Assembly (NCBI GenBank): GCA_026125895.1
Contig: JAHCKG010000006.1
Location: 1 to 64,000 of the forward strand
From: Pseudolabrys sp.
GTDB taxonomy: Bacteria; Pseudomonadota; Alphaproteobacteria; Rhizobiales; Xanthobacteraceae
Length of the DNA: 64,000 nt
Reading direction: 5' to 3'
Below are positions 7,711-56,565 of this stretch, piece after piece; position 1 is the first letter of the stretch, and the number at the start of each line of letters is the position of its first letter. The position numbers were made by a program, and so were the translations under genes. Below the pieces are notes generated by a model. It worked only from the letters and a program-made list of their open reading frames with translations, had not been told where the DNA came from and did no database searches.

Positions 7711-7801
7711 AAATCCAAGTTCCCCAGTTTCACCTGAATACGTTAACGATCTGTTTTCCTTAACCTTTGGCCCTTCGCCGCTGACCGCCGGAAAAGCCCC
7801 C

Positions 7802-12394: not shown

Positions 12395-12442
12395 CGGCAA
12401 CTGTCCCGGTTCGGCCTGCGGCGCGTGGCCGCGGCCCGTTAA

Positions 12443-12482: not shown

Positions 12483-12517
12483 ATAAGTTGTCAAGCGGTG
12501 CTGAGAGGGAGCGGCGG

Positions 12518-13087: not shown

Positions 13088-13122
13088 ACGGCGCCGGAGC
13101 TCGATTTCAACCACGCGTATTT

Positions 13123-13137
13123 GTTCTCTAAATGTTC
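13123..13137 (+). promoter_or_regulatory. LexA (SOS) box, GTTC-N7-GTTC
   Basis: GTTC, seven bases (TCTAAAT), GTTC. With the box at 10996 it shares TTTGTTCT, two variable bases, then AAATGTTCT. It overlaps a possible -10 (TAAATG). It lies 110 bases before the plus-strand membrane-protein gene at 13247, its likeliest target. Confidence 0.7.
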
Positions 13138-13246
13138 TTGTCGTCGGCCGGTGGTGGGTCCAAATGAATAAGGCGGGACGCCGCGCCGCGCGGGCTTCCG
13201 CAGGAGCCCCGACCGGGCTTATTAGGCTCCGGGCGGAGGAAGCACC

Positions 13247-14185: not shown

Positions 14186-15040
14186 CCGTGTTTGCCGCAC
14201 CTGTCGCGCTTCCCAAGCGTCAACCAAATCCACGATATCGGTCATTTCCCAGCGGCGCTTAGTCACGCCAGCCGCCATCGCTGGCGTCATTTTCAAAGTC
14301 TGATGCACCCGCACGAAATTGTAGAACATCGCGTGCAGCGAGATCGCGCAAACGTGGTTCTCTAGCTTTTTGCTGAAAGCGTTGGTCAGTCGCGTAAAAC
14401 GGCGCATGTGCATCCGCATGGTGAGATTGGCGCGCTCGGCAAACGACGTGCTGATGTTATCCGGGTCGGGATTGCCTGTTATCGTTTTCCTTTCCGCGCC
14501 GATGCACACCGCCGGGCTGTAACGCTTTTCGCCGCTCGGTTCGTTGCCATACAATTTCACAAGCATCGCGTAATCCACTTCTTCTCCAAAATGCTCCTGC
14601 ACCGCCTTGAGATAGGCGCGGTGGCCGTCGCTGGTCAGTTGAACCCGATTAGCAAGCCTGTCTTTCAGATCGCCAATGAAGGCGCTCGCGCAGCCGTAAC
14701 CACGGTCGCCAATGTAGAAGCTCGCCAGAAGCTTGGTATCGGCGCAGATCGCGGTCCACGTCCAAACGTCGCCAGCGGTGCCCGGAGGGGTTTTCGCTGA
14801 GCCAACGTGCGCCTGCTTGGCGTAGACGAAGGACCAGATTTCATCGACCTGCACGCGCTCACACGGCAGGTTGCGAAGCACTCGGTCCTGATAGGCGGCG
14901 CAAGCTACGCCCGCGTCGATCAGCAGCCGGGCCACGGTGTTTTTACCAACCCCAAGGACGCGGGTGATTGCCCTGATGCTCATGCCTTCGCAGAGCAATT
15001 GGAGGATTTTGGCGCGGGTGTCTCGGTCAAGTTTGTTCAT
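14174..15040 (-). CDS. IS1-family-type transposase (single-frame)
   Basis: A 288-aa DDE recombinase resembling IS1 InsB-like proteins but encoded without a frameshift. The N-terminal HTH is CEGMSIRAITRVLGVGKNTV; catalytic segments are VQVDEIWSFVYAK (D), LTSDGHRAYL (D) and FAERANLTMRMHMRRF (E). The ATG at 15040 starts the conserved region. A promoter-like pair lies upstream on the minus strand (TTGACC at 15070-15075 and a -10 near 15045-15054). I found no terminal inverted repeats or target duplication around it, and its 3' end overlaps the neighbouring membrane gene, so it may be a stranded or domesticated copy. Confidence 0.85.
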   Translation of the reverse strand: MNKLDRDTRAKILQLLCEGMSIRAITRVLGVGKNTVARLLIDAGVACAAYQDRVLRNLPCERVQVDEIWSFVYAKQAHVGSAKTPPGTAGDVWTWTAICADTKLLASFYIGDRGYGCASAFIGDLKDRLANRVQLTSDGHRAYLKAVQEHFGEEVDYAMLVKLYGNEPSGEKRYSPAVCIGAERKTITGNPDPDNISTSFAERANLTMRMHMRRFTRLTNAFSKKLENHVCAISLHAMFYNFVRVHQTLKMTPAMAAGVTKRRWEMTDIVDLVDAWEARQVRQTRLAA

Positions 15041-15514
15041 GGTCGTATTAGATACAAAAATGCTTGAGCGGTCAAGCATGAATTTTGACAATATGCTAAG
15101 TGATTCTAACCTAAGCCCTTTTTGAATCAGGAGAATTTTGTAGACAGTCAATCGGATTTGTGGTACGAACCGCAACAGATCGGGGCCAGGCAGCGCCTGA
15201 CCCCGTATCCGCGAGCGGATCGGTACTGTTAACAGTAGGGCACCGCCCTACTGCTTATAATGTCCGGGCCGCGAGCCACACAGCGCACCTCCTGCGGGCC
15301 TTTCACCCGCTCGACCGCTGTTAAGATGCCCCGGACGCCACATCCTAGGGATTTTCGACGCCCGCTACCGGAAACGGATAGCGGGCGTTGCCGTCTGTCG
15401 GTTAACCATCCGGCGTTTCAGTTGTATCATCTGTATGGATTTTGGCAACAGGATTCTTGCGTCGATTCAGACGCGCGCGTATATTCAGACCGTAGGAACG
15501 GGTGGAGAACGGCT
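15041..15514. other. Intergenic region with several perfect palindromes
   Basis: 474 bases without a convincing gene. It holds: CTTGA-GCGG-TCAAG at the transposase promoter (15063-15076); TACTGTT-AACAGTA (15224-15237) overlapping CAGTAGGGC-ACC-GCCCTACTG (15233-15253); and ACGCCCGCTA paired with TAGCGGGCGT (15358-15367 / 15379-15388). A longer pair GTCCGGG near 15260 and CCCGGAC near 15330 could close a structured RNA. No poly-T tract follows any stem. It could hold a small RNA, the remains of an element end, or terminators for both flanks. Confidence 0.5.
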
Positions 15515-16027
15515 GTGTCAGATGCAGCGCTGAAGAATGCAATCGCCAAGCGCGACGAAATCGCATCGCAAATCAATAAGTTGCAGTCGCAAATTGACGA
15601 GTTGCGTCGTCTGATGGCGCGGACCGAACAGTTCATCAGCGACTGGCAAATGTTCGCAACTGGGGCGGACAAAGAGGATGATGGCGGTGCCGAAGATGAC
15701 AATTCCCCGGCTCGAAATATCGATAAATTGGAGGTCGGGAATTATGCGGCCGAGTTTCTTGAGGAGGCCTGCAAGCCACTAAAGCGAAAAGAACTGATGC
15801 GACGCCTGAATGAAATGGGCATCCACATCTACGGTAAAAATCCGGATATGGTTCTCAGCACCATGATGTGGCGGATGCAGGATCGGTTTGTCCGCATTCC
15901 GGGATTTGGCTACTGGTTTAGGGACAAGCCTTACGCTCCAGCCAAATACACGCCCGGTTCAATTCCAAACACTTTGAAAAAAGAGGACGCCGAACAGCAG
16001 GAGCAAATGGAGGAGTTGCTGGAGTAG
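15515..16027 (+). CDS. Coiled-coil plus winged-helix-like protein, unknown function
   Basis: A 170-aa protein. Residues 1-50 form a coiled coil (SQINKLQSQIDELRRLMAR), then an acidic linker, then at about 75-145 a winged-helix-like domain (FLEEACKPLKRKELMRRLNE ... MVLSTMMWRMQDRFVRIPGF GYWF) of the HARE/restriction-associated type. The C-terminus is acidic and glutamine-rich. It may bind DNA as a dimer. The GTG at 15515 is preferred because GGTGGAG precedes it and composition changes there; the frame is open upstream to 15260. It is convergent with the small basic-protein gene, the stops being adjacent. Confidence 0.75.
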   Translation: MSDAALKNAIAKRDEIASQINKLQSQIDELRRLMARTEQFISDWQMFATGADKEDDGGAEDDNSPARNIDKLEVGNYAAEFLEEACKPLKRKELMRRLNEMGIHIYGKNPDMVLSTMMWRMQDRFVRIPGFGYWFRDKPYAPAKYTPGSIPNTLKKEDAEQQEQMEELLE

Positions 16028-16234
16028 CTAGTTCTTTTTCCACCGCGCCGCCGCCGCCTTCCGGGCAATCTCGGCCCGCTCCTCTGCCGATAGCTTCTCG
16101 GCTCTGGCCTTCCCACCTTTAAGCCCTCCGCGCCGTCCCAGGGCGACGGCAAACGGGTTCTTTTCGACGTTCGCAGCTGCTTCGTCGATTATCTGTTTTG
16201 CGAGCCTATTAGGGTCTGTAGGGCGTTTTTTCAT
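16028..16234 (-). CDS. Small basic 68-aa protein with GG-rich/LSAEERAEIARKAA motif
   Basis: A 68-aa protein starting MKKRPTDPNRLAKQIIDEAA. It has a glycine/lysine-rich turn (GRRGGLKGGKARAEKL) followed by SAEERAEIARKAAAARWKKN. This tail motif recurs in many short bacterial proteins of unknown function, sometimes described as nucleic-acid binding or linked to plasmids and antitoxins. A perfect 21-bp palindrome sits just upstream of the start, so autoregulation is likely. The gene is convergent with the coiled-coil/winged-helix gene. Confidence 0.75.
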   Translation of the reverse strand: MKKRPTDPNRLAKQIIDEAAANVEKNPFAVALGRRGGLKGGKARAEKLSAEERAEIARKAAAARWKKN

Positions 16235-16247
16235 GTGCCTGCGCTTG

Positions 16248-16303
16248 TAACTATTCCGAATAGTTACCGTTCGTTAACGATTGATACTTGAGCGGTCAGG
16301 CAT
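16248..16303 (-). promoter_or_regulatory. Operator palindromes before the 68-aa gene
   Basis: GTAACTATTC-C-GAATAGTTAC (16248-16268) is a perfect 10-bp-arm palindrome. TCGTTAACGA (16271-16280) is a second, shorter one. CTTGAGCGGTCAGGCAT (16287-16303) matches, with one mismatch, the segment at the transposase promoter (15063-15079). Read on the minus strand this segment carries a -35-like CTGACC or TTGACC. The two genes may thus share a regulator or promoter module. Confidence 0.55.
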
Positions 16304-16451
16304 CCAATATGCGCTCTATTTTCCACTTTCGCCACCCCAGTCCCCGCTATTCAACTGCCGGACGATTGTACTACTGTTCTTGATTTGTTCTTTATGGGGC
16401 ATGACGCGCGGCGATCAGCTTTATTACTCACTGTGCTTTGCTCTTTGCCGG

Positions 16452-16601
16452 ATGAAAATTCAGGGCCGGAAGGGCGTCCTAACCGACGCCGATCGAGACC
16501 AGATCGCCAGGACGGTGATCGAGCGGCTGCGCCTGTATGGCGATCGCTGGGGGCTAGATGAGGAGGTGATAGTCGAGCACAGATCGCCGCCGGCCTATTG
16601 A
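16452..16601 (+). CDS. Possible small 49-aa protein
   Basis: A 49-aa reading frame from the ATG at 16452 (MKIQGRKGVLTDADRDQIAR, ending EVIVEHRSPPAY) that looks like a compact charged helical protein. The frame is open to 16281 with another ATG at 16401, but the upstream part is composed unlike coding sequence. No clear ribosome site is seen. No family recognised. It may be spurious. Confidence 0.35.
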   Translation: MKIQGRKGVLTDADRDQIARTVIERLRLYGDRWGLDEEVIVEHRSPPAY

Positions 16602-16611
16602 TCGCACGCAC

Positions 16612-16824
16612 CTATTCAAAGCCGTAACGCTTTTTAGCTTTGGCGACGATGACGGTCCGCTGCTCCTCTGTGAGAGTATGAGGCAATGGAATATCGATAG
16701 GCGGCGTAGTGCAGCTGAAATACAAGACGTTTCCGCCGCCACCCCAGCCTGATGGGTTATCAATTGACCCGTTAAAATTGTGAAGCAGGCGGGAAAAATA
16801 CGCCATATATTCGGCTTCAGTCAT
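16612..16824 (-). CDS. Hypothetical 70-aa protein
   Basis: A 70-aa product beginning MTEAEYMAYFSRLLHNFNGS with a glycine-rich turn (SGWGGGGNVLYF) and a C-terminal helix (TLTEEQRTVIVAKAKKRYGF). No signal peptide or membrane helix. I do not recognise it. Ribosome site is weak (GGCGGG about five bases before ATG). Lies in the lower-GC accessory patch. Confidence 0.5.
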   Translation of the reverse strand: MTEAEYMAYFSRLLHNFNGSIDNPSGWGGGGNVLYFSCTTPPIDIPLPHTLTEEQRTVIVAKAKKRYGFE

Positions 16825-16866
16825 AACCCGCCGCCGTTTCTTATTTAGCCCACCATGGGCGGGCCG

Positions 16867-17175
16867 TTATGCGGCAGGAACCACTCGAACCATCGCCCCA
16901 ATTTGGGGGCCTGAAATGCTGCCGTTCGTATAAACAGAAACCTCTCGGCCTTCCTTGCAGAAGGCGTTCCGAAGGCCGCGGTCTATCGCCGGACGAATCT
17001 CATCGTCCGACGTGACCGCCAAAAACAATTCGGGGAGTTCGTCGCAGGTCATGAAAATCACGCCCGCTTCGTTTTCACGAATCAGGGTAATGGGGACCGA
17101 CTTGCCAGAGAAATTCGATTCCAGAATTCGCTCGGCGCTGTCCAGCGTAGACACTTTTGCTGTCCCGTAAGTCAT
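16867..17175 (-). CDS. Hypothetical 102-aa protein
   Basis: A 102-aa soluble alpha/beta-looking protein (MTYGTAKVSTLDSAERILES, later AGVIFMTCDELPELFLAVTS and RPAIDRGLRNAFCKEGREVS). The ATG at 17175 is chosen; a GTG at 17205 would add ten basic residues. No family recognised; the alternation of strands and the middle helix could fit a small regulator or immunity-type protein, but nothing supports a function. It is read in the same direction as the gene at 16612, which lies 42 bases further on. Confidence 0.55.
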   Translation of the reverse strand: MTYGTAKVSTLDSAERILESNFSGKSVPITLIRENEAGVIFMTCDELPELFLAVTSDDEIRPAIDRGLRNAFCKEGREVSVYTNGSISGPQIGAMVRVVPAA

Positions 17176-17503
17176 TTTGCGGATTCGTCTTTTCGTTAAA
17201 ACCACAAATGCGAAGCCGCTGCAACACTGATTCGCAGCGACAGATTAACCCAACGCGCCTTACATGGTTCCGAGCGGAACCATAATCCATAACCCTTACA
17301 ATAACTTAATGTGATAACGAGAAATCCGCTCGGCCCACACTTTTTTCGCGACTGATGCGCCCCACCCGGCACCAACGCCCGCGCCCTGATTTGCAGGCAC
17401 CTGCAAATTGGAAGGGGGCAGCCGGCGACCACAATCAAATGGACCCACCACCCGTCGGCCGCGGCCTCGGCTACACTCTCAGGTAGAGCTGAGGGAGCAA
17501 GGC
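17176..17503. other. Intergenic region upstream of comM with two palindromes
   Basis: 328 bases. It carries the perfect dyads ATGGTTCCG-AG-CGGAACCAT (17264-17283) and ATTTGCAGG-CA-CCTGCAAAT (17389-17408), plus an AT-richer stretch between. The lower-GC accessory patch appears to end here, since composition returns to high GC at about 17340. The comM promoter must lie in the last 100 bases. No gene seen. Confidence 0.5.
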
Positions 17504-19057: not shown

Positions 19058-20704
19058 TCAGGCCGCGCGTGCGATCGAGAGCGGAGCGGACGCCGGGGAT
19101 TGCGCCGGCCGCGGCGCCGCGGCCGCAGCGGCGTCTTCGACATTGAAGAAATCGACCTGTTCGTCCATCGCCCGCGCCTGATCTTCGAGCGTCTTCGCGG
19201 TCGCGGCATTCTCCTCGACCAGCGCCGAGTTCTGCTGCGTCACTTCATCCATCTGCGTCAGCGCCTTGTTGATCTGCTCGATGCCGGAGGCCTGTTCGGC
19301 GCTGGCATTGGCGATATCGGCGGCAATGACGGCAACATCCTTGATCGAGGCAACGATGTCGCCGAGCGAGGCGCCGGCGCGGTTGACCAGATCGACGCCG
19401 TCTTTGACCTCGACCGACGAGTTGGTGATCAGGTCCTTGATGTCCTTGGCCGCCTGCGAGGAGCGCTGCGCCAGGCTGCGCACTTCCGACGCCACCACCG
19501 CGAAGCCGCGGCCCGCTTCTCCGGCGCGCGCCGCTTCGACCGAGGCATTGAGCGCCAGAAGATTGGTCTGCCGTGCGATCTCGTCGATGACGCCGATGAT
19601 GTCGGCGATCTTGCGCGAAGATTCCTCGATCCGCGCCATGGCATCGACCGCCTTGGCGACAACCTCACCGCCGCGGCCGGCGACATCCTGCGTCGCCTTG
19701 GCGGAGTCGGCGGCGCGCCGGGCATTGTCTGCATTCGACTTCACGATCGAGGAGATTTCCTCCATCGACGCGGATGTCTGTTCGAGCGTCGCCGCCTGCT
19801 CTTCGGTGCGTTGCGACAGGTCGGTCGTGCTGGTCGAGATTTCCGCAGAGGCGCTGGTGACGTCGCGTGCCGAGCGTTTGACCGAACCGATCACGGCGTT
19901 GAGCTTGTCGATGGCGCTGTTGAGGTTACTCTGAAGTTGCGTGTACTCGGGCGGCATCTTCTGCATGATGCGGGTCGTGAGATTGCCGCTCGCCAGATGC
20001 GCCAGTCCCTCGCCGAGAACGGCGATCGGACTGACCAGCCGGCGGATGATCGCAACGATGCCGATCACCAGAAGCAGGAACAGCGCGGCGTCGACTGCGG
20101 CGACCGACCAGATCGCAGTACGGCCCAGGCTCGACGATTCGGCCTCGACCTTCTCGCCCAGCGCATTGGCCGCGGTCACGATCTGATCGATCACCTCGCG
20201 GTGGCCGTGATAGGCCGCGGACAATTCGGCATACGCGGCTTTCGCCGCCGCCTCATCCTGCTTCTCCAGCGCCGGGAGAAGCTTGCCGTCGAATGCCGCC
20301 CAGAATTTCGCGACATGCGCGTGTGACGCTTCCGTCAGCTTGTTGCGGATGCCGTCGTCGAGATTCGATGCCTGCCAATAGGCGCGGCGCGTATCGTAGT
20401 CCTTGCGCAACTCGGCCATGCGCTTCTTGACGTCGGCGACCGGCGTCTCGAAATGCGCGGCGCGCGTCGCTTCGAGATAGGCTTCGATGATGTAGAGCGG
20501 CGGCGGCAGGATGTCGGCGACCAGATCCTTGGTCTGCACGATGCGGTCATACGTGGCGCCGCCGATCCGGATCTTGGTCATGGAATAAGCGCTGATGGCG
20601 ACGGCGATGGCGATGCCGGCCGCCATCGTGGCGCCGAAGACCAGCAAGGTGGCCATCGACTTGATACTGCGCCGCCGCGCTCCGCTGCCGATTGCTTGCG
20701 CCAT
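19058..20704 (-). CDS. Methyl-accepting chemotaxis protein
   Basis: A 548-aa transmembrane chemoreceptor. TM1 lies near residues 17-40, a periplasmic helical domain of about 160 residues follows, then TM2 ([19 protein letters not shown]), a HAMP (SGNLTTRI region) and the signalling domain with [19 protein letters not shown] and [19 protein letters not shown]. The C-terminus is an alanine/proline tail without an evident methylation-enzyme tether. The ATG at 20704 follows AAGGGCGG. It is convergent with comM. Confidence 0.92.
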
Positions 20705-21015
20705 GTGTCCGCCCTTCTGTGCCGAAGCGCCACGGCGAACCGCCACGCGCTTATTGGGTTACCAATTTGTATTACACATAAAGTGACGGTTATTTGTTAA
20801 GGAAGCATTCAAGATTGCGGTTGTGAGCATTAAGAGCTGCAAATCATACGATAAATGCAGACGTTTTCGACGCACGCGCATGCGATACCGGTCGCGTTAT
20901 AAACAACCGCAACGGCCGATCGTACTTAACGCTGCTTTCACTACGTCTGCACGCAGCGGCGCCACACGGCTTTACCGCCACCGAATGGCAAGACTTGGCG
21001 CGCACAACGTCCGCC
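20705..21015. other. Divergent promoter region between chemoreceptor and hybrid kinase
   Basis: 311 bases with an AT-rich core (about 20757-20900, e.g. TACCAATTTGTATTACAC). It must hold both promoters. No clear operator palindrome or additional gene is visible. Confidence 0.4.
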
Positions 21016-38061: not shown

Positions 38062-38415
38062 TTGACCGCGATTCCCGCACGCACCGGCCGAATTGCCGAA
38101 ATCGCCATATTCGCCGTCCTGTCGCTTGCGGCATTGGTGGCGAGCGCGCGAATCGGCCTTGTGCCGGCGAATTCCGAGAACGGCGTCGCGGTCATCTTTG
38201 CGCCCTGGACCTCGGCGCAAACCAGCATCGAACGGGCCACGGCCGACGGCAGCCGCTTCGTCCGCTTCGGCGGCCTCACCTCCATCGCCGTGGTGATACC
38301 CGCCGCCGCCGATTATGCCGGGCGGATGCTCGACAACGGCGCTTGGCTCGTGGTCGATCCGAAGGTGCTCGCCGCTTGTTCCGCCGCGATCTCAATCCTC
38401 GGTACCAAGCAATGA
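38062..38415 (+). CDS. Small membrane-anchored protein coupled to a chemoreceptor
   Basis: A 117-aa product with a TTG start, one N-terminal TM helix ([20 protein letters not shown], a signal anchor) and a small soluble part with [20 protein letters not shown] and [20 protein letters not shown]. The stop overlaps the chemoreceptor start by ATGA, so the two are translated together. I do not recognise a family. The topology puts the soluble part in the periplasm, where it could present a ligand or act as an accessory of the receptor; this is inference. The start is uncertain since no strong ribosome site is seen. Confidence 0.65.
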
Positions 38416-39872
38416 CCAGCCTCGATGAGCTGCGAAAAACCGTCGCCATCGCACAGGTTGCGCTGACGCTCGTCCTGGTGCCGATCCTGAGCCTGGTCGC
38501 GCTGTGGCTCGGCAAACCGGTTTTCTCGACGGCCGCGGTCGCCGCGATCCTTGCGCTCGTCCCGTTCGCCGGCGTCGTGTTCAAGCGGCCCTTGCGCTTT
38601 ACTGCCTTCGCGCTGGCGGTGGCGCTGGTCGGCCAGACATCTCTGCTGGTCGTGCTTTTCACCGGCCATCCCTGGCAGGTCGAAATGCACTTCTATTACT
38701 TCGCGGTGCTGGCGATGCTGTCCGGACTCTGTGACGCCGCGGTCCTGATCACCGCGGCGACACTGATCGCACTTCATCACCTGAGCCTGAATTACCTGCT
38801 CCCGTCGGCCATCGTTCCCGGCGGCACCGACCTGCTGCGCGTCATCGTCCACGCCATCGCCGTCGTGCTCGAAACCGCCATGCTGGTCGCTTTCACCATG
38901 GCCATCCGCGCGACCTTCGCCGGCGCCGGCAAGGCGCAAAAGGCGTCCGAGGATGCGGCAGCCGAACTGTCGCAGATCGGCAAGCGCCGCGAACAGGAGC
39001 TTGCCGCCACGACGCGGCGCGCCGAGCACATGCGCGCTCTGCTCAACAACTTCAAGAACGCCATTGAAGGATCGACATCGATCCTGCATGCCGCATCGCA
39101 GACCTTGCAAAGCGACGCCGAGAACCTCGACCGCGCTGCGACGCAGGCCAGTGCGCAATCCGGCAAGGCCTCGTCTTCGGCGCAAAAGGCGACGCAAATG
39201 GTCCAGGCCGCTGCCGCCTCCGGCGAGCAACTCGCCCATTCAATCGCCGAGGTCGGGCGGAATGCCATGCGCTCCTCCGAACTCGCCGGCGCTGCCGTCA
39301 GGGAAACCATCCGCACGCGAACGATCATCGACAAGCTGGCGGCCGCCACCGGTGACATCGGCAAGGTCACCGACCTGATCAACGCCATCGCCGCGCAAAC
39401 CAATCTGCTGGCGCTCAATGCCACGATCGAGGCGGCGCGCGCCGGCGAAGCCGGACGCGGCTTTGCCGTGGTCGCCCAGGAAGTCAAAACGCTGGCCAGC
39501 CAGACGACGCGTGCCACCGAAGAGATCGCCCGCTCGGTGGAAGCCATGCGCGCCGAAACAGAACTGTCAGTGGCGGCAATTTCAGCCATTTCAGAAACTA
39601 TTCGCGAGCTCGACGAATTTTCGACGCGCATCGCCGGCGCCGTCGAGGAGCAGGCCGCCACATCCCAGCAGATCGCCAGCAGCGGCAATGCCGTGACCGA
39701 CAGCGTCGGTCAGGTCGGCAGCGCCATCGTGGAGATTGAAGGCGTCGCGGTCGAAGCGTCGCGCGCGGCAACCAAGGTCAACACGGCGGCGATCGGCGTC
39801 ACCGATCAGACCCAGGTAATCCGCCAGCAGGTCCACCGGCTGGCGGACGAGATCCAGGCGATCCCGGCCTGA
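38412..39872 (+). CDS. Chemoreceptor with polytopic membrane sensor
   Basis: A 486-aa MCP whose first 170 residues are about six TM helices without a large periplasmic loop ([57 protein letters not shown]). The HPWQ-EMHFYYF and ALHHLxLNYLLP pattern is a recurring integral-membrane sensor. A coiled coil and the MA domain follow, with [19 protein letters not shown] and [17 protein letters not shown]. No HAMP is evident. Membrane sensors of this kind may read energy state, lipids or small hydrophobic ligands. Coupled to the 117-aa gene. Confidence 0.9.
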
Positions 39873-45095: not shown

Positions 45096-46361
45096 ATGCG
45101 GGAAATGAAACTCCAGGACCTCAAGTCCAAAACTCCCGCCGAACTCCTCTCCTTCGCGGAAGAGCACCAGGTCGAGAACGCGTCCACGCTGCGCAAGCAG
45201 GAACTGATGTTCGCGATTCTGAAGCAGCTCGCCGCCCAGGAGATCGAGATCATCGGCGAAGGCGTCGTCGAAGTCCTGTCCGACGGCTTCGGCTTCCTGC
45301 GCTCGCCGGAATCGAACTACCTGTCCGGCCCTGACGACATTTACGTCTCGCCCTCGCAGATCCGCCGCTTCGGCCTGCGCACCGGCGACACCGTCGAAGG
45401 CCAGATCCGCTCGCCGAAGGAAGGCGAACGCTACTTTGCGCTGCTCAAGGTCAACACGATCAATTTCGAAGACCCCGAGAAGGCGCGCCACAAGATCAAC
45501 TTCGACAACCTGACGCCGCTCTATCCCGACGAGCGGCTGAAGATGGAACACGACGATCCGACCAAGAAGGATCTGTCGGCCCGCGTCATCGACATCGTCT
45601 CGCCGATCGGCAAGGGCCAGCGCGCCCTCGTCGTCGCGCCGCCGCGCACGGGTAAAACCGTGCTGCTGCAGAACATCGCCCACGCCATCACGGCGAACCA
45701 CCCGGAATGCTATCTGATCGTTCTCCTGATCGACGAGCGTCCGGAAGAAGTCACCGACATGCAGCGCTCGGTGAAGGGCGAGGTCGTGTCCTCGACCTTC
45801 GACGAACCGGCAACCCGCCACGTCGCCGTGGCCGAAATGGTCATCGAGAAGGCCAAGCGCCTCGTTGAACACGGCCGCGACGTCGTCATCCTGCTCGACT
45901 CGATCACCCGCCTCGGCCGCGCCTACAACACCGTTGTGCCGTCATCCGGCAAGGTGCTGACCGGCGGTGTCGATGCCAACGCGTTGCAGCGGCCGAAGCG
46001 CTTCTTCGGCGCCGCGCGAAACATCGAGGAAGGCGGTTCGCTGACCATCATCGCCACGGCACTGATCGACACCGGCAGCCGCATGGACGAAGTCATCTTC
46101 GAAGAATTCAAGGGCACCGGTAACTCCGAACTCATCCTCGACCGCAAGGTCGCGGACAAGCGCACCTTCCCGGCGATCGATATCACCCGCTCGGGCACGC
46201 GCAAGGAAGAGCTGCTGGTCGAACCGGCCGTGCTCAAGAAGATGTACGTGCTGCGCCGTATCCTCAACCCGATGGGCACGATGGATGCGATCGACTTCCT
46301 GCTCGACAAGCTGCGCAACACCAAGAGCAACGGCGAGTTCTTCGAAAGCATGAACACCTAA
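45096..46361 (+). CDS. rho: Transcription termination factor Rho
   Basis: A 421-aa hexameric RNA helicase. The N-terminal [20 protein letters not shown] is typical of Hyphomicrobiales Rho; the cold-shock-like RNA-binding domain has [14 protein letters not shown]; Walker A is [26 protein letters not shown] and the Q-loop region [20 protein letters not shown] follow. AAGGA precedes the start. Position next to hemE-hemJ and mnmE agrees with the alphaproteobacterial origin region. Confidence 0.97.
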
Positions 46362-46921: not shown

Positions 46922-48247
46922 TCAACTTAGCCGGTCACCCTGCCCGGCAAAACGTTTCTCCATCGCCCGCCGCGTCGCCATGGTCTCGTCCTTCTCGTCG
47001 ATCGACACATCGGCCCAGGTCAGCACGGCGCCATGCGGCACGGCGCGCACCAGCTTCAAGTGATGCGCCAGTCCGATCGGCACGGCGCCAAGGGCAAGGC
47101 TCTTTGCCGCCGGCATCAGCCGTCCCCACACCGTGTAGCCGCCTTCGCCGTCGAGCACATCGCCAACGCGCAGATCGCGCTTGGCCACCGCGACAGCATC
47201 GCCGCGGAATGAGAGCGGCTGGCCGGTGGCCTCGCCGCGCAACGCCGCCGACAGCACCGAGATGTTCAGTTCGAGTCCGATCAGGTGATACGGCTTGTAC
47301 ATCGCCGCGTAGCGCCCGGAGGCGTCGGTCTTCAACCCGTATTGCCGGAAGCATGCGGCGGCATAATCGTTCGGCGCCTCGAGCACGACATAGACGCCCC
47401 AGCGCAGATCGCGAAACACCGGACGGCCGTCGCGCTCGACCGACGACACGACTTCGACCATGCCCGGCCGCTTCAGGATGCCGCCGGCGCTGGCGGGCCG
47501 CAGCACATGCGGCAGGTCATCGACGCCGCACGGCGGAAAGGCGAGCCCCTCGTCCGGCACATCGAGGCCGGTCGCGTTCGCGATCGCCGCCATTTCGATG
47601 GCCGACTTTGTGCCGTCGAGAAACGAATTGAACATCTGCGGATTCATGCCGGCGGCCTGCGCCTCCTGCGGCGTCAGGCCGTAATGGCTCCACACATCGT
47701 CCGGCGTCACGTCGTGATAGGCCGGCAGATACTTCGTGCCCTTCCCGGCGGCGACGACGTGGAAGCCGGTGGCGCGCGCCCAGTCCACCATCTCGGCGGT
47801 GAGCGCCGGCTGGTCGCCATAGGCGAGCGAATAGACAACGCCGGCGCTTCGCGCTTCCTCGGCGAGCAGCGCGCCGGCCAGCACATCGGCCTCGACATTG
47901 ACCATGACGATGTGCCGGCCCGCCGCGATGGCGGCACGCGCATGGCGGATGCCGGCCGCCGGATGGCCGGTGGCTTCGATCACCACCTCGGCTTGCGTCT
48001 TGCCAATGGCGCCGATGCCGTCGTCGGTGAACGAGGTTGCCGCAATCCGGTCTTCGCTCCAGCCGACAGCGCGGCAGGCCTCGCGCGCGCGATCCGGTGA
48101 CAGATCGGCAATCGCCGCCACTTCGAGGCCGGGTGTGTGCGGCACCTGCGACAGGAACATGGAGCCGAACTTGCCGGCGCCGATCAGCACCACGCGGACG
48201 GGACGTCCCTCCGCGTGGCGGCGGTTCAACAACTGATGCAGGTTCAT
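46922..48247 (-). CDS. NAD(P)-binding homoserine-dehydrogenase-like protein with SAF domain
   Basis: A 441-aa probable oxidoreductase. Residues 15-160 form a Rossmann domain (VRVVLIGAGKFGSMFLSQV; VVIEATGHPAAG; VMVNVEADVLAG), then a catalytic-type middle domain (KGTKYLPAYHDVTPDDVW), and a C-terminal SAF-like domain (GDAVAVAKRDLRVGDVLDGE). The family is seen with dioxygenases and sugar-acid or amine catabolic genes, but the substrate is unknown. It is last in an operon after the GntR and PhyH genes, with a six-base gap to PhyH. Confidence 0.82.
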   Translation of the reverse strand: MNLHQLLNRRHAEGRPVRVVLIGAGKFGSMFLSQVPHTPGLEVAAIADLSPDRAREACRAVGWSEDRIAATSFTDDGIGAIGKTQAEVVIEATGHPAAGIRHARAAIAAGRHIVMVNVEADVLAGALLAEEARSAGVVYSLAYGDQPALTAEMVDWARATGFHVVAAGKGTKYLPAYHDVTPDDVWSHYGLTPQEAQAAGMNPQMFNSFLDGTKSAIEMAAIANATGLDVPDEGLAFPPCGVDDLPHVLRPASAGGILKRPGMVEVVSSVERDGRPVFRDLRWGVYVVLEAPNDYAAACFRQYGLKTDASGRYAAMYKPYHLIGLELNISVLSAALRGEATGQPLSFRGDAVAVAKRDLRVGDVLDGEGGYTVWGRLMPAAKSLALGAVPIGLAHHLKLVRAVPHGAVLTWADVSIDEKDETMATRRAMEKRFAGQGDRLS

Positions 48248-48253
48248 GAGTGT

Positions 48254-49051
48254 CTACGCCGCCTGCTTCTGCGCGCGGGCGAGACGGACCAGCGCGTCGT
48301 CATCGACCGTCTCGATCGGCGCGAAGTCCTGATGCGCGATGAACTCCGGCCGCGTCGGTATGCGGATGTAATTGGAGACGGCATTGAGCGTCAGATAGAC
48401 GATCTTGCGCGGGTACGGCGTGATGTTGCCGGCCGAGCCATGCACCAGATTGCCGTGGAACATGAGCATGCTGCCCGGCTTGCCGGTCGGCGCGACGATG
48501 CCGCCTTCGTTGACGAGGCGCGTCACCGTTTCTTCGTCGAGCGTCCACAGTGGGTAGGACGTTGTCTCGAGATCGTGCGAGGCCTGAAGATCGCCGGCGA
48601 GGTGGCTTCGCGGCACCAGCATCAGCGGGCCGTTGATTGGCATCACCTCGTCGAGAAAGATCGAGATGTTCATGGCGCGGGGCTCGGGCATGCCGTCGTC
48701 GCGCTTCCAGGTGCCGTAGTCCTGATGCCACTGCCACACCGCGCCGGTGAAGGCTGATTTGGCGTTGATCTTGTACTGATGCATGTAGACGCGCTCGCCG
48801 AACACCTGTTCGACGGGATTGATCATGCGCGGATGCGCGCCGAGCAGGCGGAATGCTTCGTTGTACTTGTGGGCGGCGAAGGCGGTGCGTGGCGCGCCGC
48901 TTTTCTCGCGCCAGACCTCGGGGCGGTTTTCGTCGTAGATCGAAACCGCTTCGCGCCGCAGGAGATCGACCTCCTCGGGCGTGAACAGTTCGGGCAGCAG
49001 CAACCAGCCTTCGGTATGGAATTGATCGATCTGCGCCTGGGTCAGCTTCAT
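48254..49051 (-). CDS. Phytanoyl-CoA dioxygenase (PhyH) family, EctD-like
   Basis: A 265-aa Fe(II)/2-oxoglutarate dioxygenase. The facial triad is in QWHQDYGTW (His and Asp) and FHGNLVHGSAGN (distal His). The QWHQDYGTWKRDDGMPEPRA stretch resembles the ectoine hydroxylase signature, but no ectoine genes are present, so the substrate is open. The ATG at 49051 follows AAGGAGGAAAC. Operon with the SAF dehydrogenase-like gene. Confidence 0.87.
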   Translation of the reverse strand: MKLTQAQIDQFHTEGWLLLPELFTPEEVDLLRREAVSIYDENRPEVWREKSGAPRTAFAAHKYNEAFRLLGAHPRMINPVEQVFGERVYMHQYKINAKSAFTGAVWQWHQDYGTWKRDDGMPEPRAMNISIFLDEVMPINGPLMLVPRSHLAGDLQASHDLETTSYPLWTLDEETVTRLVNEGGIVAPTGKPGSMLMFHGNLVHGSAGNITPYPRKIVYLTLNAVSNYIRIPTRPEFIAHQDFAPIETVDDDALVRLARAQKQAA

Positions 49052-49082
49052 CGTTTCCTCCTTGGTTTTGGTTGTTATCAAG

Positions 49083-49757
49083 TCAGGCCGCCCGTTCGAG
49101 CGACCTCAGCCTTTCCTCCGTGGTGCGCCCGGCGGCGAGCGCATGCGCTTGGGCGGCGGCTTCGGCGTCGCCGCCTGAGCCGGCCAGAACATGTTTGGCG
49201 ATGGTGCGGTGTTCGGCCCAGGCGCGCGTGCGATAGTCGGCGTCGGTGAGCACCGCCGCCATCGAGCGGCGCAGATGCGGCCATTGCGGCGACGCCATTT
49301 CCTCGATCGCCGGATTGCCGGACAGGCGATAGAGCGCCCGGTGAAAGTCGAGATCGAGGGCGATGAGGTCGCTGAGCTGCGTTTGCGCATCGATCTTGTC
49401 GCCGGCGGCCAGTGCGGCTTCGAACACGCCGCGGCTCGCGGCATCGAGCATGACGCGTTCCGCCGCCAGCTTCGCCGCCAGCGCATCGAGCGCGCCGCGC
49501 ACTTCATAGAGCTGGCGGATGCGCACGGCATCGAGCGGCGTGACCTGGAAACCCTTGCGGCCGCTTTCGACGACCAGGCCCTGCCGGTGCAGCAGGTGCA
49601 AAGCATGGCTGACCGGCTGGCGCGACACGCCGAGCTTTTCGGCCAGCGCCTGCTGCCGGATGCGATGGCCCGGCTCCAGCGAGTGATCGACGATCGACTC
49701 GAGTATCCGGTCATAGACCTGTTGGATGAGGTTCGGAGCGACGGTCAGCGGGATCAT
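49083..49757 (-). CDS. GntR (FadR subfamily) regulator
   Basis: A 224-aa regulator with a winged HTH (LAEKLGVSRQPVSHALHLLH RQGLV) and a C-terminal FCD ligand domain (VRGALDALAAKLAAERVMLD; DLDFHRALYRLSGNPAIEEM; AEHRTIAKHVLAG with metal-binding His). It is first in a unit with the PhyH and SAF-domain genes, 31 bases ahead, so it likely controls their catabolic operon in response to a small acid. The ATG at 49757 is used; a GTG directly before it is possible. Confidence 0.9.
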   Translation of the reverse strand: MIPLTVAPNLIQQVYDRILESIVDHSLEPGHRIRQQALAEKLGVSRQPVSHALHLLHRQGLVVESGRKGFQVTPLDAVRIRQLYEVRGALDALAAKLAAERVMLDAASRGVFEAALAAGDKIDAQTQLSDLIALDLDFHRALYRLSGNPAIEEMASPQWPHLRRSMAAVLTDADYRTRAWAEHRTIAKHVLAGSGGDAEAAAQAHALAAGRTTEERLRSLERAA

Positions 49758-49955
49758 CACGAGCTGCCAGTTTTGGAATTCCGAATTCCGAAAGACTGCG
49801 CCCTTGGATACCGCCTGTCAAATGGCCTCAAGGCGCCCCCAGGATGCGCTCGGGCGATATCGTAACGGCGATTGAGCGATCCTCGTCCGGGGTTAGTAGC
49901 TTCGCATTGTTGACAAAGCACAATTCCCGGGCGGACACTTGAGCGAGGTTCAACC

Positions 49956-50930
49956 ATGGCCATGCCCCCGCTGTCCGCCTTGCGCGCCTTCGAGGCCGCC
50001 GCCCGCCATCTCAGCCTGACGCTGGCGGCCGGCGAATTGAACGTGACGCCCGGCGCGCTGAGCCATCAGATCCGCGGCCTCGAGGACATGCTCGGCGTCA
50101 AGCTGTTCGAGCGGCGCGTGCGCTCGATCGCGCTGACTGCCGCGGGCCAGCAACTCTATCCCGGCCTTCAGGCCGGCTTCGGCCACATCCGCGACGCGGT
50201 GGCGAATTTGCAAGCGCGGAATAATTCGCAGGTGCTGGTGCTCAGCACGTCGCCCGGCCTGACGGCCAAATGGCTGGTGCCTCGCCTCTATCGCTTCGCC
50301 GCCGCCTATCCCGACATCGACGTGCGCATTTCGGCGACAGCGACCAACGCCAATTTCGTCAATGACGGCGTGGACATGGCATTGCGCAACATGGCCGACC
50401 CGCCGCAAATCGACGCAACGCTCGAAGCCGAGAAACTGATCGATGTCTTCTATGTGCCGGTGTGCAGCCCGCGGCTTCTGGAAAAGAGCGGGCCGATCCG
50501 CAATCCGGCCGAGCTCGCGCAACTGCGGTTGATCCATGACGACTCGCTGATCGCCCGCAAGGCGCGGCCGGACTGGAGCGAATGGTTCAATGTCGCCGGC
50601 GTCGGTGACGTCGATCTGCAGCGCGGCCTGCGTTTCAACAGCGCCGATCATGCGCTCGACGCCGCCTGCGAAGGCGCCGGCGTGCTGCTGTCCTATGATT
50701 TGCTCGCCTATGACGATCTGCGCAGCGGCCAGCTCGTGATGCCGTTTCCGCTGGCGCTGCCGTCGGGCCGCGCGTTCTTCCTGGTGCGGCCGAAGGCGCG
50801 CAAACCGCCCGCGGCCGCCGAAGCCTTCCGCACATGGATCCACGCGGAAGCGCAAGCGCTCGACTGGGGGACAATCCGCGGCGATGCGCCGGTCAAAGAC
50901 AGTCGCGCCGCGGTCAGGCGTCGCAAATAG
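49956..50930 (+). CDS. LysR-family regulator (GcvA-like)
   Basis: A 324-aa LysR protein. HTH: PPLSALRAFEAAARHLSLTL AAGELNVTPGALSHQIRGLE; the substrate domain has KWLVPRLYRFAAAYPDIDVR ISAT. This GcvA-type N-terminus is common. It is divergent from the GntR operon with about 200 bases between, so it may co-regulate it or an unseen target. An alternative ATG is two codons later. Confidence 0.92.
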   Translation: MAMPPLSALRAFEAAARHLSLTLAAGELNVTPGALSHQIRGLEDMLGVKLFERRVRSIALTAAGQQLYPGLQAGFGHIRDAVANLQARNNSQVLVLSTSPGLTAKWLVPRLYRFAAAYPDIDVRISATATNANFVNDGVDMALRNMADPPQIDATLEAEKLIDVFYVPVCSPRLLEKSGPIRNPAELAQLRLIHDDSLIARKARPDWSEWFNVAGVGDVDLQRGLRFNSADHALDAACEGAGVLLSYDLLAYDDLRSGQLVMPFPLALPSGRAFFLVRPKARKPPAAAEAFRTWIHAEAQALDWGTIRGDAPVKDSRAAVRRRK

Positions 50931-51067: not shown

Positions 51068-53401
51068 ATGTCAGCCCGCAGCCGCTCTCGATTGCCGCGA
51101 CCCGCATTGTGGATCGCGGCGCCGGTGTTTTTTGTCTGCGCCGCCGGCATCGGGGTGTTTCATATTTTTCAGTCATCCTTGGCCGCTTTCGCCGTCGGGC
51201 TGATCGGCGCGCTGCTGGTCGGCCTCTATGCCGACCGCCGCCTGTCGTCGGCAATCGGCGCCATCAGTGCCATTGCCGGCGGCGATCGTTACACCAGCCT
51301 GCCGGAGATGATCGGCGATGGCGCCATGCAGAACTTCGGCGAGACCGCCGACCGCATCCGCACCGCGCTGATCGAGGCCGACACGTTGTCGGTCGATCAG
51401 AACCGGCGCGAGACCGAAGCGCGGCTGCATCACGCCGGCCGTCATTTCTTCACCGGCAACTTCCGCCGCGCCATCGAGGACGTCGTCAGCGCCTTCACCC
51501 AGGCCGGCGAGCGCATCCGCGGCACCGCCGGCGAACTGACCAAGACCAACCGGCTGATGGCGCAGCAGGTGACGGCGTCGTCCGACGCCGCGGCGCGTGC
51601 GGCCGAGGAAGTCGCCGGCGTTGCCGCCGCGGCGCAGGACGTGCAGGCGCTGACGGTCGATTCGGCGCGCCAGGTCGAGGCGGCGCGCGCCGCCACGCAT
51701 CGCACCGTGTCGGAGCTGACGCGCGCCGACGAGACCATGCGCAATCTCGGCCTCGCCGCCGGCCGCATCGAGCAGGTCATCAAGCTCATCCAGGCGATCG
51801 CCGGCCAGACCTCGCTGCTGGCGCTCAACGCCACCATCGAAGCGGCGCGCGCCGGCGAATCCGGACGCGGCTTCGCGGTGGTTGCCGCCGAGGTGAAGGA
51901 GCTGTCGCGCCGCACGCAGCAGGCGACGCACGAAGTCTCGACCCAGGTGCACGACATCCAGGCCGCGGTGGACGAAGCGGCGCAGGCCATCGTCGCCGTC
52001 GATCAAAGCGTCGCCGCCATGAGCCACGTCAACGAGACCGTGACACGGCTGATGGAGCAGCAGATCGTCAAGCTCGACCGCATCGGCACCGACGCGCGCA
52101 AGGTCGCCGCGACGGTGAACGAGGCATTGCCAAGCATCCGCACCGTGGTCGCCGATGTCGCCGACGCCGGCGACGCCGTGCTCGCCACCGCCGACGACCT
52201 GATGACGCGGGCGCAGTCGCTCACCGCGTCGGTCAGCCGCTACTTCGCCGATCTCGATCACGGTTCTATCAAGGTTGGCGTGCTGCATTCGCTGTCCGGC
52301 ACGCTCACGGCCAGCGAGCGGCCGCTGCAGCAGATGCTGGTGATGCTGATCGAGAAGCTCAACGAGGCCGGTGGCCTGCTCGGCCGCCCGGTTGAAGCCG
52401 CGATCATGGATCCGCGCTCCGACACGGAAGCCTATGCCGGCCAGGCCGAAGCGCTCCTGAGCGAGCACAAGGTCGCGGCGATCTTCGGCTGCTGGACCTC
52501 GGCGTCACGCAAGGCGGTGCTGCCGGTGCTGGCCGCGCACGATGCGCTGCTGTTCTATCCGAGCCAGTACGAAGGCGAGGAGCAGTCGCCGCATGTCGTC
52601 TACACCGGCGCGACGCCGCAGCAGCAGGCCCTGCCCGCGGTCGATCATCTCATCGGCCTCGGCCGCCGCCGCTTCTTCCTCGTCGGCACCGACTACGTCT
52701 ATCCCCGCACCACCAACGCCATTGTCCGCAACTATCTCGAAGGCGCGCACGGCATCGGCGCCGATGCGATCGATGAGCTCTACACGCCGTTCGATGAAAC
52801 CAGCTGGCGCGACACCGTTCATCGCATCCGCCGCTTCTGCGGCAAGGACGGCGCCATCGTCGCTACGCTGTCGGGCGACTCCAACGTGCATTTCTTCCGC
52901 GAGCGCGCGCGCCAGGGCCTCGATGCCGACATTCTGCCGGTGATGAGCCTGTCGCTCGGCGAAGCCGAAATGCCGGCGCTGCACGAGCGCAATCTCGTCG
53001 GTCACATGGTGGCGTGGAATTACCTGCACACGCTCGACACGCCGGAGAATCGCGCCTTCATCGCCGAGTGGCGGCGCTTCACCGGCGATGCCAATGCCAT
53101 CACCAACGATCCGATGGAGGCGACCTGGATCGGCTTCCAGCTGTGGACGCAAGCGGTGACCGCCGCCGGCACCACCGAGCCGCGCGCCGTGCGCGCGGCG
53201 CTCGCCGGCCGCTCGATCCGCGCGCCGTCGGGCTTCGACGTGCGGCTCGATCCGGTGAACCAGCATCTGCATAAGCCGTCGGTGATCGGCCGCATGGATG
53301 AAAAGAACGTCATCTGGCCGGTGCGCGTCAGCGACGGCCTGATCGCGCCGGCGCCGTGGAGTGAGTGGCTGGCGAAGCAGACCTTGAAGCGCGCCAGCTG
53401 A
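51068..53401 (+). CDS. MCP signalling domain fused to a UrtA-like binding domain
   Basis: A 777-aa chimera. Two TM helices lie at about residues 13-55 ([34 protein letters not shown]), with no room for a periplasmic domain. A linker and an MCP domain follow ([37 protein letters not shown], about 250-300). From about residue 400 to the end is a type I periplasmic-binding fold very like the urea/short-amide receptor UrtA/Fmd[69 protein letters not shown]. With a TM hairpin the UrtA part should be cytoplasmic. The start is ATG 51068; codons between 50981 and 51068 look non-coding. Confidence 0.85.
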
Positions 53402-53504: not shown

Positions 53505-55550
53505 TCAGCTCATCGCCTTGATCGCTTCCGCGATCTTCCCCGGCTCCATCACCGGCAGCGAGCAGCGCTCGCCGACGCAGACGAAGGCGGCGCTGCCCGA
53601 CACCGCTTTCACCTTATCCTGCGCCGGATGCGACGGCGGCAGTGCTTCCGGTGACGATGCGCGCAAAACAATTCGAGAAAGATGCGGCAACTTCAGCGCC
53701 TCCTGCGCGAACGCTTCCGCGTCCGGTCCGACGCACACGACCTCCGCGGCGCGCAGCCGGAAGTCGAGCGCATTGAGCAGCGCGACGTGGCCGAACAGGT
53801 TCTGCGCCGCCGTGGCGAGAATATTCTCGAGCAGCCGGTCGGCCTGCGCGCGCCACTTGTCGTCGCCGGTCAGCGCCGCGAGCCGCACCAGGTTCTCGGC
53901 GGCAACCGAATTGGGGTTCGGCGTCGCGTCGTCATTGGTCGCGGCCGGGCGCACCACCAGCCCTTCCGCATCGTCGGCGGTGAGGAAATAGCCGCCATTG
54001 CCGGGATTGGCGTAATGGCGGTCGAGCGCCGCCTGCCAGACCAGCGCCTGATGCAGATAGGCGGCGTCGCCGGTCGCCTCGTTGAGCGCCAGCGCCGCGC
54101 GGATCATGCCGGTAAAATCCGACGCCAGACCGGGAAACAGCAGCTTGCCGCCACGATAGGAGTGCCCGAGACGGTCGCCCTTCGTCATATTATTGGTAAT
54201 GAAATCATAGGCTTGCCGCGCAATATCGAGCCATTTCGGCTCGTCGAAGGCGCTGGCGGCATGCGCCAGGGCGGCGATCATCAGCCCGTTCCAGTCGGCC
54301 AGCACCTTGTCGTCGAGGCCGGGTCGAATTCGTTTCTCTCGTTCTGTCAACAACTTACCGCGCAACATGACCAGCCGCGCCTCATCGGCCGGGGGCGACC
54401 CCTCGGCTCCCATGTTGCGCGGTAAGTGCTTGAGGCGATTGAGGATGTTGTGCCCTTCGAAGTTGCCTTCTTCGGTCACATCGTATTGCGCTGCAAAATA
54501 GTCGGCATCCGGCCCCAGCAGCTCGCGGATTTGCCGCAGCGACCAGACATAGAACTTGCCCTCCTCGCCCTCGGAATCGGCGTCGAGCGATGACGAGAAG
54601 GCCTTGGTTTCGTTGGTCATTTCCCGCTGGAGCCAGCCGACCGTCTCGGCGGCGCGGGCGCGGTAGAGCGGGTTTTTGCTGCGGGTCCAGGCTGCAGCAA
54701 TCAGGTCGAGAAGCTGGGCGTTGTCGTACAGCATCTTCTCGAAATGCGGCACCAGCCAGTGCTCATCGACCGAGTAGCGGGCAAAGCCGCCGCCGAGGTG
54801 GTCGTAGATGCCGCCTTCGCAAATATGGGTCAGCGTGAAGTCGGCGAGGTCGAAGAAACGCGGATCGCCGCCGCGGTCCCCCGCCCGCCACAGCATCTCG
54901 TAGAGCGAGGTTTGCGGAAATTTCGGCGCGCCGCGCAGGCCGCCATTGCCGGTGTCGAAGGCGTTGCCGAGCTGCTTGGCGGCAGCATCGAGCTCCTTGA
55001 GCCCGATCGTGACCTGGCCTTCGGGCCGCGCCGCTTGGCCGAGGCGCGCCAGGAGCGCGGCGCGGTTCTGCTCGATCTTAGCCGGCTCCTCGCGGAACAG
55101 CCGCGACACCTCGCGCAGGATGTCGGTGAAGGCCGGCCGGCCGAATTTCGATTCTTTCGGAAAATAAGTGCCGCCCCACACCGGCTCGCCGGCCGGCGTC
55201 AGGAACATGGTGAGCGGCCAGCCGCCCTGCTCGCCGAGCAGATGCAGCGCGTTCATGTAGATCTGGTCGATGTCGGGGCGCTCCTCGCGATCGACTTTGA
55301 TGTTGACGAACAGCTCGTTCATCACGCGCGCGGTGGCTTCGTCCTCGAAGCTCTCATGCGCCATCACATGGCACCAGTGACAGGCCGCATAGCCGACCGA
55401 CAGCAGGATCGGCCGGTTCGAACGCTTGGCTTCGGCGAGCGCTTCCGGCCCCCACAGCCACCAGTCCACCGGATTGTGCTGGTGTTGCAGCAGATAAGGC
55501 GACGTCGCGTCGCTGAGGCGGTTGGTGTGCGTGGAGTTACCTGCTGTCAT
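53505..55550 (-). CDS. Thioredoxin-domain protein, YyaL/SPATA20 family (DUF255)
   Basis: A 681-aa soluble protein. An N-terminal thioredoxin-like DUF255 domain ([38 protein letters not shown], with CHWC) is followed by an alpha/alpha-barrel glycosidase-like region ([36 protein letters not shown]). It is widespread and related to mammalian SPATA20; the biochemical role is unsettled. Length is normal. The ATG at 55550 starts [12 protein letters not shown]. Confidence 0.9.
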
Positions 55551-55567
55551 CGCAATCACTCTGCTGT

Positions 55568-55676
55568 CGTCCCGGCCAGGCGCCACGCGGCGCGCGAGCC
55601 GGGGCTTATATCCACTAACGTCTCGGGTAACGGAAAGACAGGGGATATGGGTCCCCGGTTTCGTGGCGCGACAAAG
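55568..55676. repeat. Palindromic repeat, family B-like
   Basis: GTCGTCCCGGCC and GGGGCTTATATCC on one side, GGGATATGGGTCCCCGG and GGCGCGAC on the other. A degenerate copy of the family, between the thioredoxin-domain and LssY_C genes. Confidence 0.6.
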
Positions 55677-55677
55677 A

Positions 55678-56565
55678 CTACTTCGCCCCTGGCGGTGGCG
55701 TTCCGTCATCCGTGCCGGCCAGCAGTGCCGGCCCGATCAGGCCGATGATCGCTTTCCAGGTCTGGTTCTTGAGTTCGACCAGCGGCGGATTCGCCAGTTC
55801 CGCAACGGTGGCCGCGGTGGCCTCGCATCCCGTCACCAGCCGCGCGATCTTCACTTCGCCGTCGGTGTAATAGCGGTCGCCGCCGCCGTTCCATGCCAGC
55901 AGTGTCGGGCCGATGCCGGTGACCTCATAGATCGCCTCGACCACTTGCGCCTGTTTGAGGTCGTCGGTCAGGCCGTCACGTTCGGCGTCGATGTCGGGCG
56001 CGATGTGATGCGTGATCTGGCCGGTGTAATGGCTGATGCCGACACTGCGGTCGAACGTCACGGCGCCGAGCCAGACCGGGCGCCCTTCCTCACCCTGCGC
56101 CAGCACCTGCCAGTAACGCACGTGGTGGCGGCGGTCGGCGCTGTTGCCTGCGGGCTTTTCGAAAGCAAGGTCCTCGCGGCGCCCGTCGTAGTAAAGGTTG
56201 CTCACCGGCGCGTCGCGATACGGGCGGTGCATGACGACGCTGCCGATGATGTCGATGCTCGAGCGCAAGGTGATCGGGTCGGCCGGAAACCAGCCGGCTT
56301 TGTGCATGGCGCAAAGCACATCCTCCTTTCCGCCCACCAGCCCGGCATTGATGGCGTCGCCGGGAATGCCCTGCGCGGTGCGCGTGATCATCGACAGTCC
56401 GGCCAGTTTCTTTTGATGCTCGTAGTGCGTCTAGGCAAAGGGCAGCAACACATAGGCGACGGCCACGTAGAGCATGACGGCCGCGGCGACGGCATAGGCT
56501 GTCCTGACGGTGGCGCGGCGATGACGCATGCGCATAAGACTAGGCGCGGCATGCCGCGCTGTCAT
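55678..56565 (-). pseudogene. LssY_C-domain protein interrupted by an amber codon
   Basis: A frame from the ATG at 56565 (other starts at 56535 and 56529) encodes a TM anchor (TAYAVAAAVMLYVAVAYVLL PFA), then TAG at 56433-56431, then continues THYEHQKKLAGLSMITRT and the full LssY C-terminal domain (AINAGLVGGKEDVLCAMHKA GWFPADPITLRSS). In this family the anchor runs straight into a Trp-x-HYEHQ segment, so TGG probably mutated to TAG. No frameshift is needed. The part after the stop could start at the ATG at 56391 and lack the anchor. The role of LssY_C proteins is unknown. Confidence 0.75.

Follow-up and report, generated by a model that had tools for sequence, protein, structure and literature searches.

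Most chemoreceptors (MCPs) report conditions outside the cell. The periplasmic urea binder UrtA (8tg1, 7s6e, 8hic, 7s6f) resembles the sensor of the receptor described here over the full length of its fold, and AmiC, the amide sensor of the Pseudomonas amidase operon (1pea, 1qnl, 1qo0), has the same fold. MCPs with a C-terminal PilZ domain, such as Azospirillum Tlp1 and Aer, likewise carry an intracellular ligand domain after the MCP domain, and in A. brasilense these PilZ domains matter for receptor function, according to the accessible text of the source (PMC6406031). In a chemoreceptor census, Table 3 gives one ligand-domain cluster with one Peripla_BP_5 sequence; in the accessible part of that paper it is listed without sequence, topology, ligand or discussion, and it may or may not belong to the same family (PMC8547431). 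Apart from this single table entry, a combination of an MCP with a UrtA-like domain was not found among the top literature matches, which included few subscription papers. UrtA, AmiC and MCPs that carry a cytoplasmic domain at the C-terminus are each familiar, while their combination was encountered in these sources only as an unexplained census line.

The receptor analyzed here lies in the window, a 64,000-nucleotide stretch of a Pseudolabrys genome whose assembly is 82% complete and comprises 50 contigs. Unlike UrtA, its sensor is fused to an MCP, lacks an export signal, has Ser in place of Asn246 and is encoded away from transporter genes. AmiC, which shares 32% identity with the sensor, has no MCP and acts on AmiR rather than CheA, and PilZ binds c-di-GMP, whereas the C-terminal domain of this receptor is a recruited periplasmic-type binding protein. 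We read the protein, with a probability of roughly two in three, as a membrane-anchored chemoreceptor with an intracellular UrtA-fold sensor for a small amide- or urea-type ligand, the pocket of which has changed. The gene and its surroundings comprise the following features.

45096..46361, + strand: rho, a conserved chromosomal neighbor (Pfam Rho domains, synteny)
49956..50930, + strand: LysR regulator (GcvA-type), upstream; adjoins the receptor in loci L065, L067 and L079
51068..53401, + strand: the whole receptor gene, 777 residues, with orthologues in relatives
51098..51235, + strand: transmembrane hairpin, residues ~11-34 and ~37-56, with a very short outside loop (hydropathy in 32 orthologues, AlphaFold)
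51236..51472, + strand: putative HAMP-like or linker segment, residues ~57-135, assigned by position
51683..52162, + strand: MCPsignal domain, residues 206-365, tip at ~259 (Pfam PF00015, tip motif intact)
52232..52270, + strand: junction, residues 389-401, with invariant residues and no hydrophobic stretch
52268..53368, + strand: UrtA-like Venus-flytrap sensor, residues 401-767
52493..52573, + strand: pocket segment with W476, S478, Y497, Q500 and E502, all as in UrtA by alignment
52871..52873, + strand: Ser602 codon, aligned with the urea-contacting Asn246 of UrtA
53505..55709, - strand: Thioredox_DsbH (DUF255) gene, downstream, a conserved neighbor

The open reading frame runs from an ATG at 51068 to a stop at 53401. 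The Pfam scan places MCPsignal (PF00015) at residues 206-365 with 98.9 bits (cut-off 34.6) and Peripla_BP_5 at residues 401-767 with 432.8 bits (cut-off 27), the latter covering profile positions 1-360 of 363. Together with hydropathy, these results bear out the order given in the earlier note, namely a transmembrane hairpin, an MCP domain and a complete UrtA-like fold, including its coordinates. Pfam HAMP gave no match in the receptor at E 0.001, and residues ~57-105 may represent a diverged HAMP domain. The MCP hairpin tip is intact and closely resembles those of 18 other MCP frames printed from the same genome, in which six CheW-domain matches were also found. The NCBIfam UrtA model TIGR03407 spans the sensor at all positions (1-361 of 361) with 416.5 bits, under its cut-off of 492.75; the free UrtA of the same genome scores 558, the fused Azospirillum sensor 504.6 and the fused sensor of genome G619 457.4. 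The nearest solved structures to the sensor are urea-binding proteins and AmiC. Of the label "UrtA/FmdD-like" in the earlier note, the first half stands and the second does not: the sensor has free UrtA as its sister group, and the Azospirillum proteins linked to formamidase form a separate branch.

The genome contains 20 MCPsignal matches, and three more MCP genes lie in the window at 6016-7854 (-), 19058-20746 (-) and 38343-39872 (+). Locus L033 (contig C12, ~225193) encodes a second C-terminally extended receptor, with MCPsignal followed by PilZ at 327-415 (45.5 bits) and residues continuing to 594. The architecture, called striking by the earlier note, is indeed so, but a layout with a domain after the MCP domain has a precedent in this very genome.

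The binding pocket carries most of the information on the ligand. In the accessible text on Prochlorococcus UrtA (PMC10392092), nine residues are described near urea, of which Ser122, Gln144, Tyr190 and Asn246 form hydrogen bonds with it; mutating any of these four reduced or abolished binding, and mutation of Phe192 had little effect. By alignment, the corresponding residues of the window sensor are Trp476, Ser478, Tyr497, Gln500, Glu502, Tyr543, Tyr545, Ser602 and Ser629, seven of which are identical to the UrtA residues described there. Phe192 is replaced by Tyr, which also occupies this position in 48 of 49 proteins classed as free. Among the eight positions that mattered in that work, the sole departure is therefore Asn246, replaced by Ser602, while the other three hydrogen-bonding residues are present. 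Loss of key ligand residues, which the earlier note had held would refute its reading, has thus occurred in part, confined within this set of four to Asn246.

Across the 41 distinct fused sensors, the window's included, W120, S122, Y141, E146 and S274 are kept in all, Gln144 in 38 and the urea contact Tyr190 in 34. Ser occupies position 602 in 37 of 40 members of the window's clade and in 0 of 45 free UrtAs, all 45 of which have Asn, and 17 positions switch between the two groups at 90% or more, including 479, 499 and 628, which adjoin pocket residues (in this contrast L077 and L092, pieces of fused genes listed as free, were counted with the fused clade, and the distant free proteins L161_2324 and L128_2612 and three fused Azospirillum proteins were set aside). 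Asn is kept by the fused proteins L156 (G619) and L159 (Methyloligella), in the latter case even though it is not basal, and genome G622 has Gly. AmiC has Val at this place, so that the window pocket differs both from AmiC and from UrtA. Given the Asn-to-Ser change, the sensor probably favors a compound related to urea, as opposed to urea itself at UrtA's affinity. The ligand class that would best fit the alignments is urea or a short amide, bound in a pocket that has changed; the general class proposed by the earlier note is retained, and strict urea specificity is weakened.

A cytoplasmic receptor for urea itself, in which Ser602 would still accept a urea NH and which would read the imported urea pool before urease, is possible but unlikely. 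Such a receptor would fit the seven shared residues, the Tyr common to nearly all proteins listed as free and the Asn kept in L156 and L159. The genome further encodes a UrtA on contig C16, followed by genes that look like the remainder of a urt operon, as well as urease alpha, which is weak support because UrtA-like matches turn up widely across the order. The strong reduction or loss of urea binding on Asn246 mutation in the Prochlorococcus protein, as described in the accessible text, argues against it, as do the prevalence of Ser in the clade and the switched positions next to pocket residues. Two weak FmdA_AmdA relatives were found in the genome as well (C34 ~22900 and C11 ~35263), whose frames of 338 and 332 codons fall short of the 407-residue formamidase model.

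The pocket could alternatively have lost its small molecule altogether, with the sensor serving as a docking platform for a protein in the way AmiC holds AmiR. The AmiC-AmiR complex (1qo0) shows that the fold can bind a partner, and the loss of Asn246 would be in keeping with this. We regard it as improbable, since five pocket residues are kept in all 41 fused sensors, the sensor evolves about as slowly as the MCP half, and no AmiR-like gene occurs among the ten scanned neighbors of the receptor. More specifically, dN/dS in five comparisons of close relatives was 0.10-0.22 for the MCP part, 0.13-0.23 for the sensor and 0.31-0.58 for the first 60 residues. Purifying selection acts on both halves, and the hairpin is the fastest-changing part of the gene; given its very short loop as well, it looks like an anchor, not a sensor.

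The ten scanned neighbors likewise include no urea, amide or transporter gene, and the amide context of a small-ligand sensor of this kind therefore comes solely from a separate fusion in Azospirillum. Plasmid genes with the same domain order were found in A. brasilense MTCC4039, A. argentinense Az39 and Azospirillum sp. TSH58. In MTCC4039, the sole one with neighbors scanned, the fused gene lies 3′ of UrtA/B/C/D/E-type genes (552.5, 394.6, 445.3, 376.5 and 333.2 bits, all above cut-off) and 5′ of the formamidase gene fmdA (778.3 bits, cut-off 500). Its sensor equals that of the free neighbor at all nine pocket columns and groups with this free binding protein of the same operon with support of 100/100. 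The linker aligns with the signal region of the free protein, with RR kept and the hydrophobic core gone (best 15-residue hydropathy 0.71, versus 2.02 in the free neighbor), and resembles a decayed export signal. The strongest hint that receptors of this design act on short amides or urea comes from this operon. Azospirillum-type sensor matches occur in 13 of 289 genomes of the class, none of which stood out as fused. Downstream of the Azospirillum formamidase, at 12000-17490 of locus L161, a GntR-type regulator and a second branched-chain amino acid-type ABC transporter with its own binding protein were labeled from reading the sequence.

A single origin of all fused sensors was rejected in the sensor tree (p-AU 2.56e-05), computed on 25 rows chosen from 39, which had been thinned at 88% identity from 90, with the very long L128 and L155 left out. 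In this tree the window's clade has support of 99/98 and its remainder without L156 (G619), which is basal, 96/95. In the 39-row tree, which includes L128 and L155, the fork between the window's clade and free UrtA has support of 94/98, and the label "fused" needs three changes (2-3 in bootstraps). The MCP tree places the Azospirillum pair outside a clade of 17 (100/100), with deep forks open and L155 (G622) not in the tree; group statistics on the label were disregarded, as L082_3489 and L083_13381, other MCPs of the same loci, were labeled "fused". The Azospirillum fusion was made separately from that of the window, giving two origins, a result subject to long branches and a modest sample. 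In its ancestral form the fused sensor was probably urea-like, with Asn246 changing to Ser in this Xanthobacteraceae lineage; the simplest history that the sequences suggest is that a urea sensor was captured and then shifted in specificity. The order of events may have been different, because the MCP tree nests L156 within the clade, at a modest 80/90.

The location of the sensor was addressed by hydropathy, charge and structure prediction. The best 19-residue Kyte-Doolittle means of the two N-terminal helices are 2.21 and 2.13 in the window protein, and both helices, each measured separately in 32 orthologues, exceed 1.4 in 31 of them. AlphaFold places helices at 11-34 and 37-70. With cuts at fixed positions in the 32 orthologues, mean net charge is +2.38 for the N-tail, -0.12 for the loop and +1.31 after TM2. 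The window protein has no strongly hydrophobic stretch after residue 100, where no 19-residue window exceeds 1.25, in agreement with the earlier note, which saw no second export signal, and none was detected by hydropathy between the MCP domain and the sensor. According to Pfam, hydropathy and the model, the receptor has the layout of the class with a C-terminal cytoplasmic sensor, with a ligand domain C-terminal to the MCP domain and no further transmembrane helix.

The MCP C-terminus comes back to the membrane-proximal end of the bundle. The distance from the tip to the start of the sensor is 141 residues, and the unfused MCPs L026, L028, L030 and L032 of the same genome end at 142. Among the 18 other MCP frames printed, four measure 142, L031 143 and L027 145, and the remaining frames, of other kinds, range from 92 to 210, with L033 at 411. 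This correspondence indicates that the sensor was added at the natural MCP C-terminus. At the junction, V389, R391, Y392, F393, L396 and I401 are invariant in all 26 aligned orthologues. A structure model of the junction, suggested by the earlier note, gave a near-continuous passage in which a helix at 326-399 runs up to a strand at 401-406, but no firm geometry, with pLDDT below 50 at 388-397.

Since it starts at the usual MCP end without an export signal in between, the sensor should be cytoplasmic. The two transmembrane helices, the positive N-tail and post-TM2 region, a CheA/CheW-type tip that works inside and the lack of any later hydrophobic stretch all point this way, as does the independent Azospirillum fusion, in which the core of the signal peptide was apparently lost; the cytoplasmic location proposed by the earlier note is supported to this extent. 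An unusual topology with the sensor outside, like ordinary binding proteins, is very improbable. It would agree with the export of UrtA in known cases and with alanine-rich stretches after residue 100 that reach 1.4-1.6 in 6 of 32 orthologues, but the window protein itself stays at or below 1.25 there, the tip has to meet CheA/CheW inside, the charge bias puts both ends inside, and the Azospirillum linker lacks a hydrophobic core.

A search for the same architecture in other genomes, also proposed by the earlier note, was successful. Near full-length matches occur in 19 of 198 sampled genomes of the family, the receptor's own included, and two more are in pieces. In the order sample of 397 genomes, which includes the own genome and 18 others listed as of its family, three further carriers were found, all in one other family. 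Within the genus, searched with the MCP half only, an orthologue is present in 22 of 43 genomes (E 1e-80), in 20 of these 22 within open frames of at least 779 codons. The MCP-half match is absent from the other 21 genomes, and from 13 of the 28 of good quality, which implies that the receptor is dispensable. Among the carriers are Pseudolabrys sp. Root1462 and Methyloligella sp. GL2; their records and that of A. brasilense MTCC4039, none marked as a MAG, suggest cultured carriers, which would open the receptor to experimental test. In a phylum-wide search of 398 genomes at E 1e-105, a limit that would miss distant fusions, only G622 among the matches listed, besides the own gene, began before query position 44 (the sensor starts at ~79). 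The open frame in G622, 821 codons when counted from the preceding stop, contains both domains and terminates close to the usual position; it was treated as an intact fusion despite one in-match stop reported by the search. An MCP-half search of 385 genomes of the class led to 19 fetched loci (L126-L144), of which one, L126 in G619, encodes the sensor in frame with the MCP half.

Comparison of Pseudolabrys, Pseudorhodoplanes and Methyloligella loci shows the receptor after rho, in the hemE-rho region, and before the Thioredox_DsbH gene. The LysR gene between rho and the receptor was not found in L078, L082, L083 and L089, and in L085, L087 and L156 no other neighbor matched the window. The conserved neighborhood points to vertical descent with losses. 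In this species, a small cluster on the minus strand at 46925-49760, between rho and the receptor, encodes a DRL-type oxidoreductase, a PhyH dioxygenase and a GntR regulator; the dioxygenase matches an ectoine hydroxylase model below its cut-off. A chance fusion, assembly error or decaying gene, which the incomplete assembly and a few relatives split into two frames or pieces might have suggested, is refuted by 41 distinct fused sensors, a conserved position and purifying selection.

For the small-ligand sensor inside the cell, a mechanism can be sketched on the computed architecture, conservation, retained pocket frame, Asn-to-Ser change and two fusion origins, from which we infer topology, ligand class, signal direction and effect on movement. 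The transmembrane hairpin would only anchor the protein. The MCP hairpin would project into the cytoplasm, with its C-terminus back at the membrane-proximal end and the UrtA-fold flytrap joined to it almost without a linker. The flytrap would close on a small amide- or urea-type molecule already inside the cell, and its closure would shift the membrane-proximal end of the MCP bundle and thereby change CheA activity, a step proposed by analogy with receptors that end in a PilZ domain and with AmiC, which senses amides in the cytoplasm through the same fold.

We lean slightly toward a wider reading, a class of intracellular metabolite chemoreceptors with at least two origins in Alphaproteobacteria, in which a secreted urea or amide binder was joined to the MCP C-terminus, lost its export signal and came to steer cells by an internal pool, with the Xanthobacteraceae sensor retuned to another ligand. 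As a whole, the two captures of one protein family onto the same MCP end make up a natural experiment in sensor recruitment, one of which, in Azospirillum, comes with an apparent remnant of an export signal and an operon that suggests the ligand. The receptor would report a nitrogen compound after uptake, so that movement would be tied to what the cell has taken in. Related genomes have kept the layout of this soil-bacterium receptor, and in some bacteria movement may be guided by urea or amide already inside the cell.
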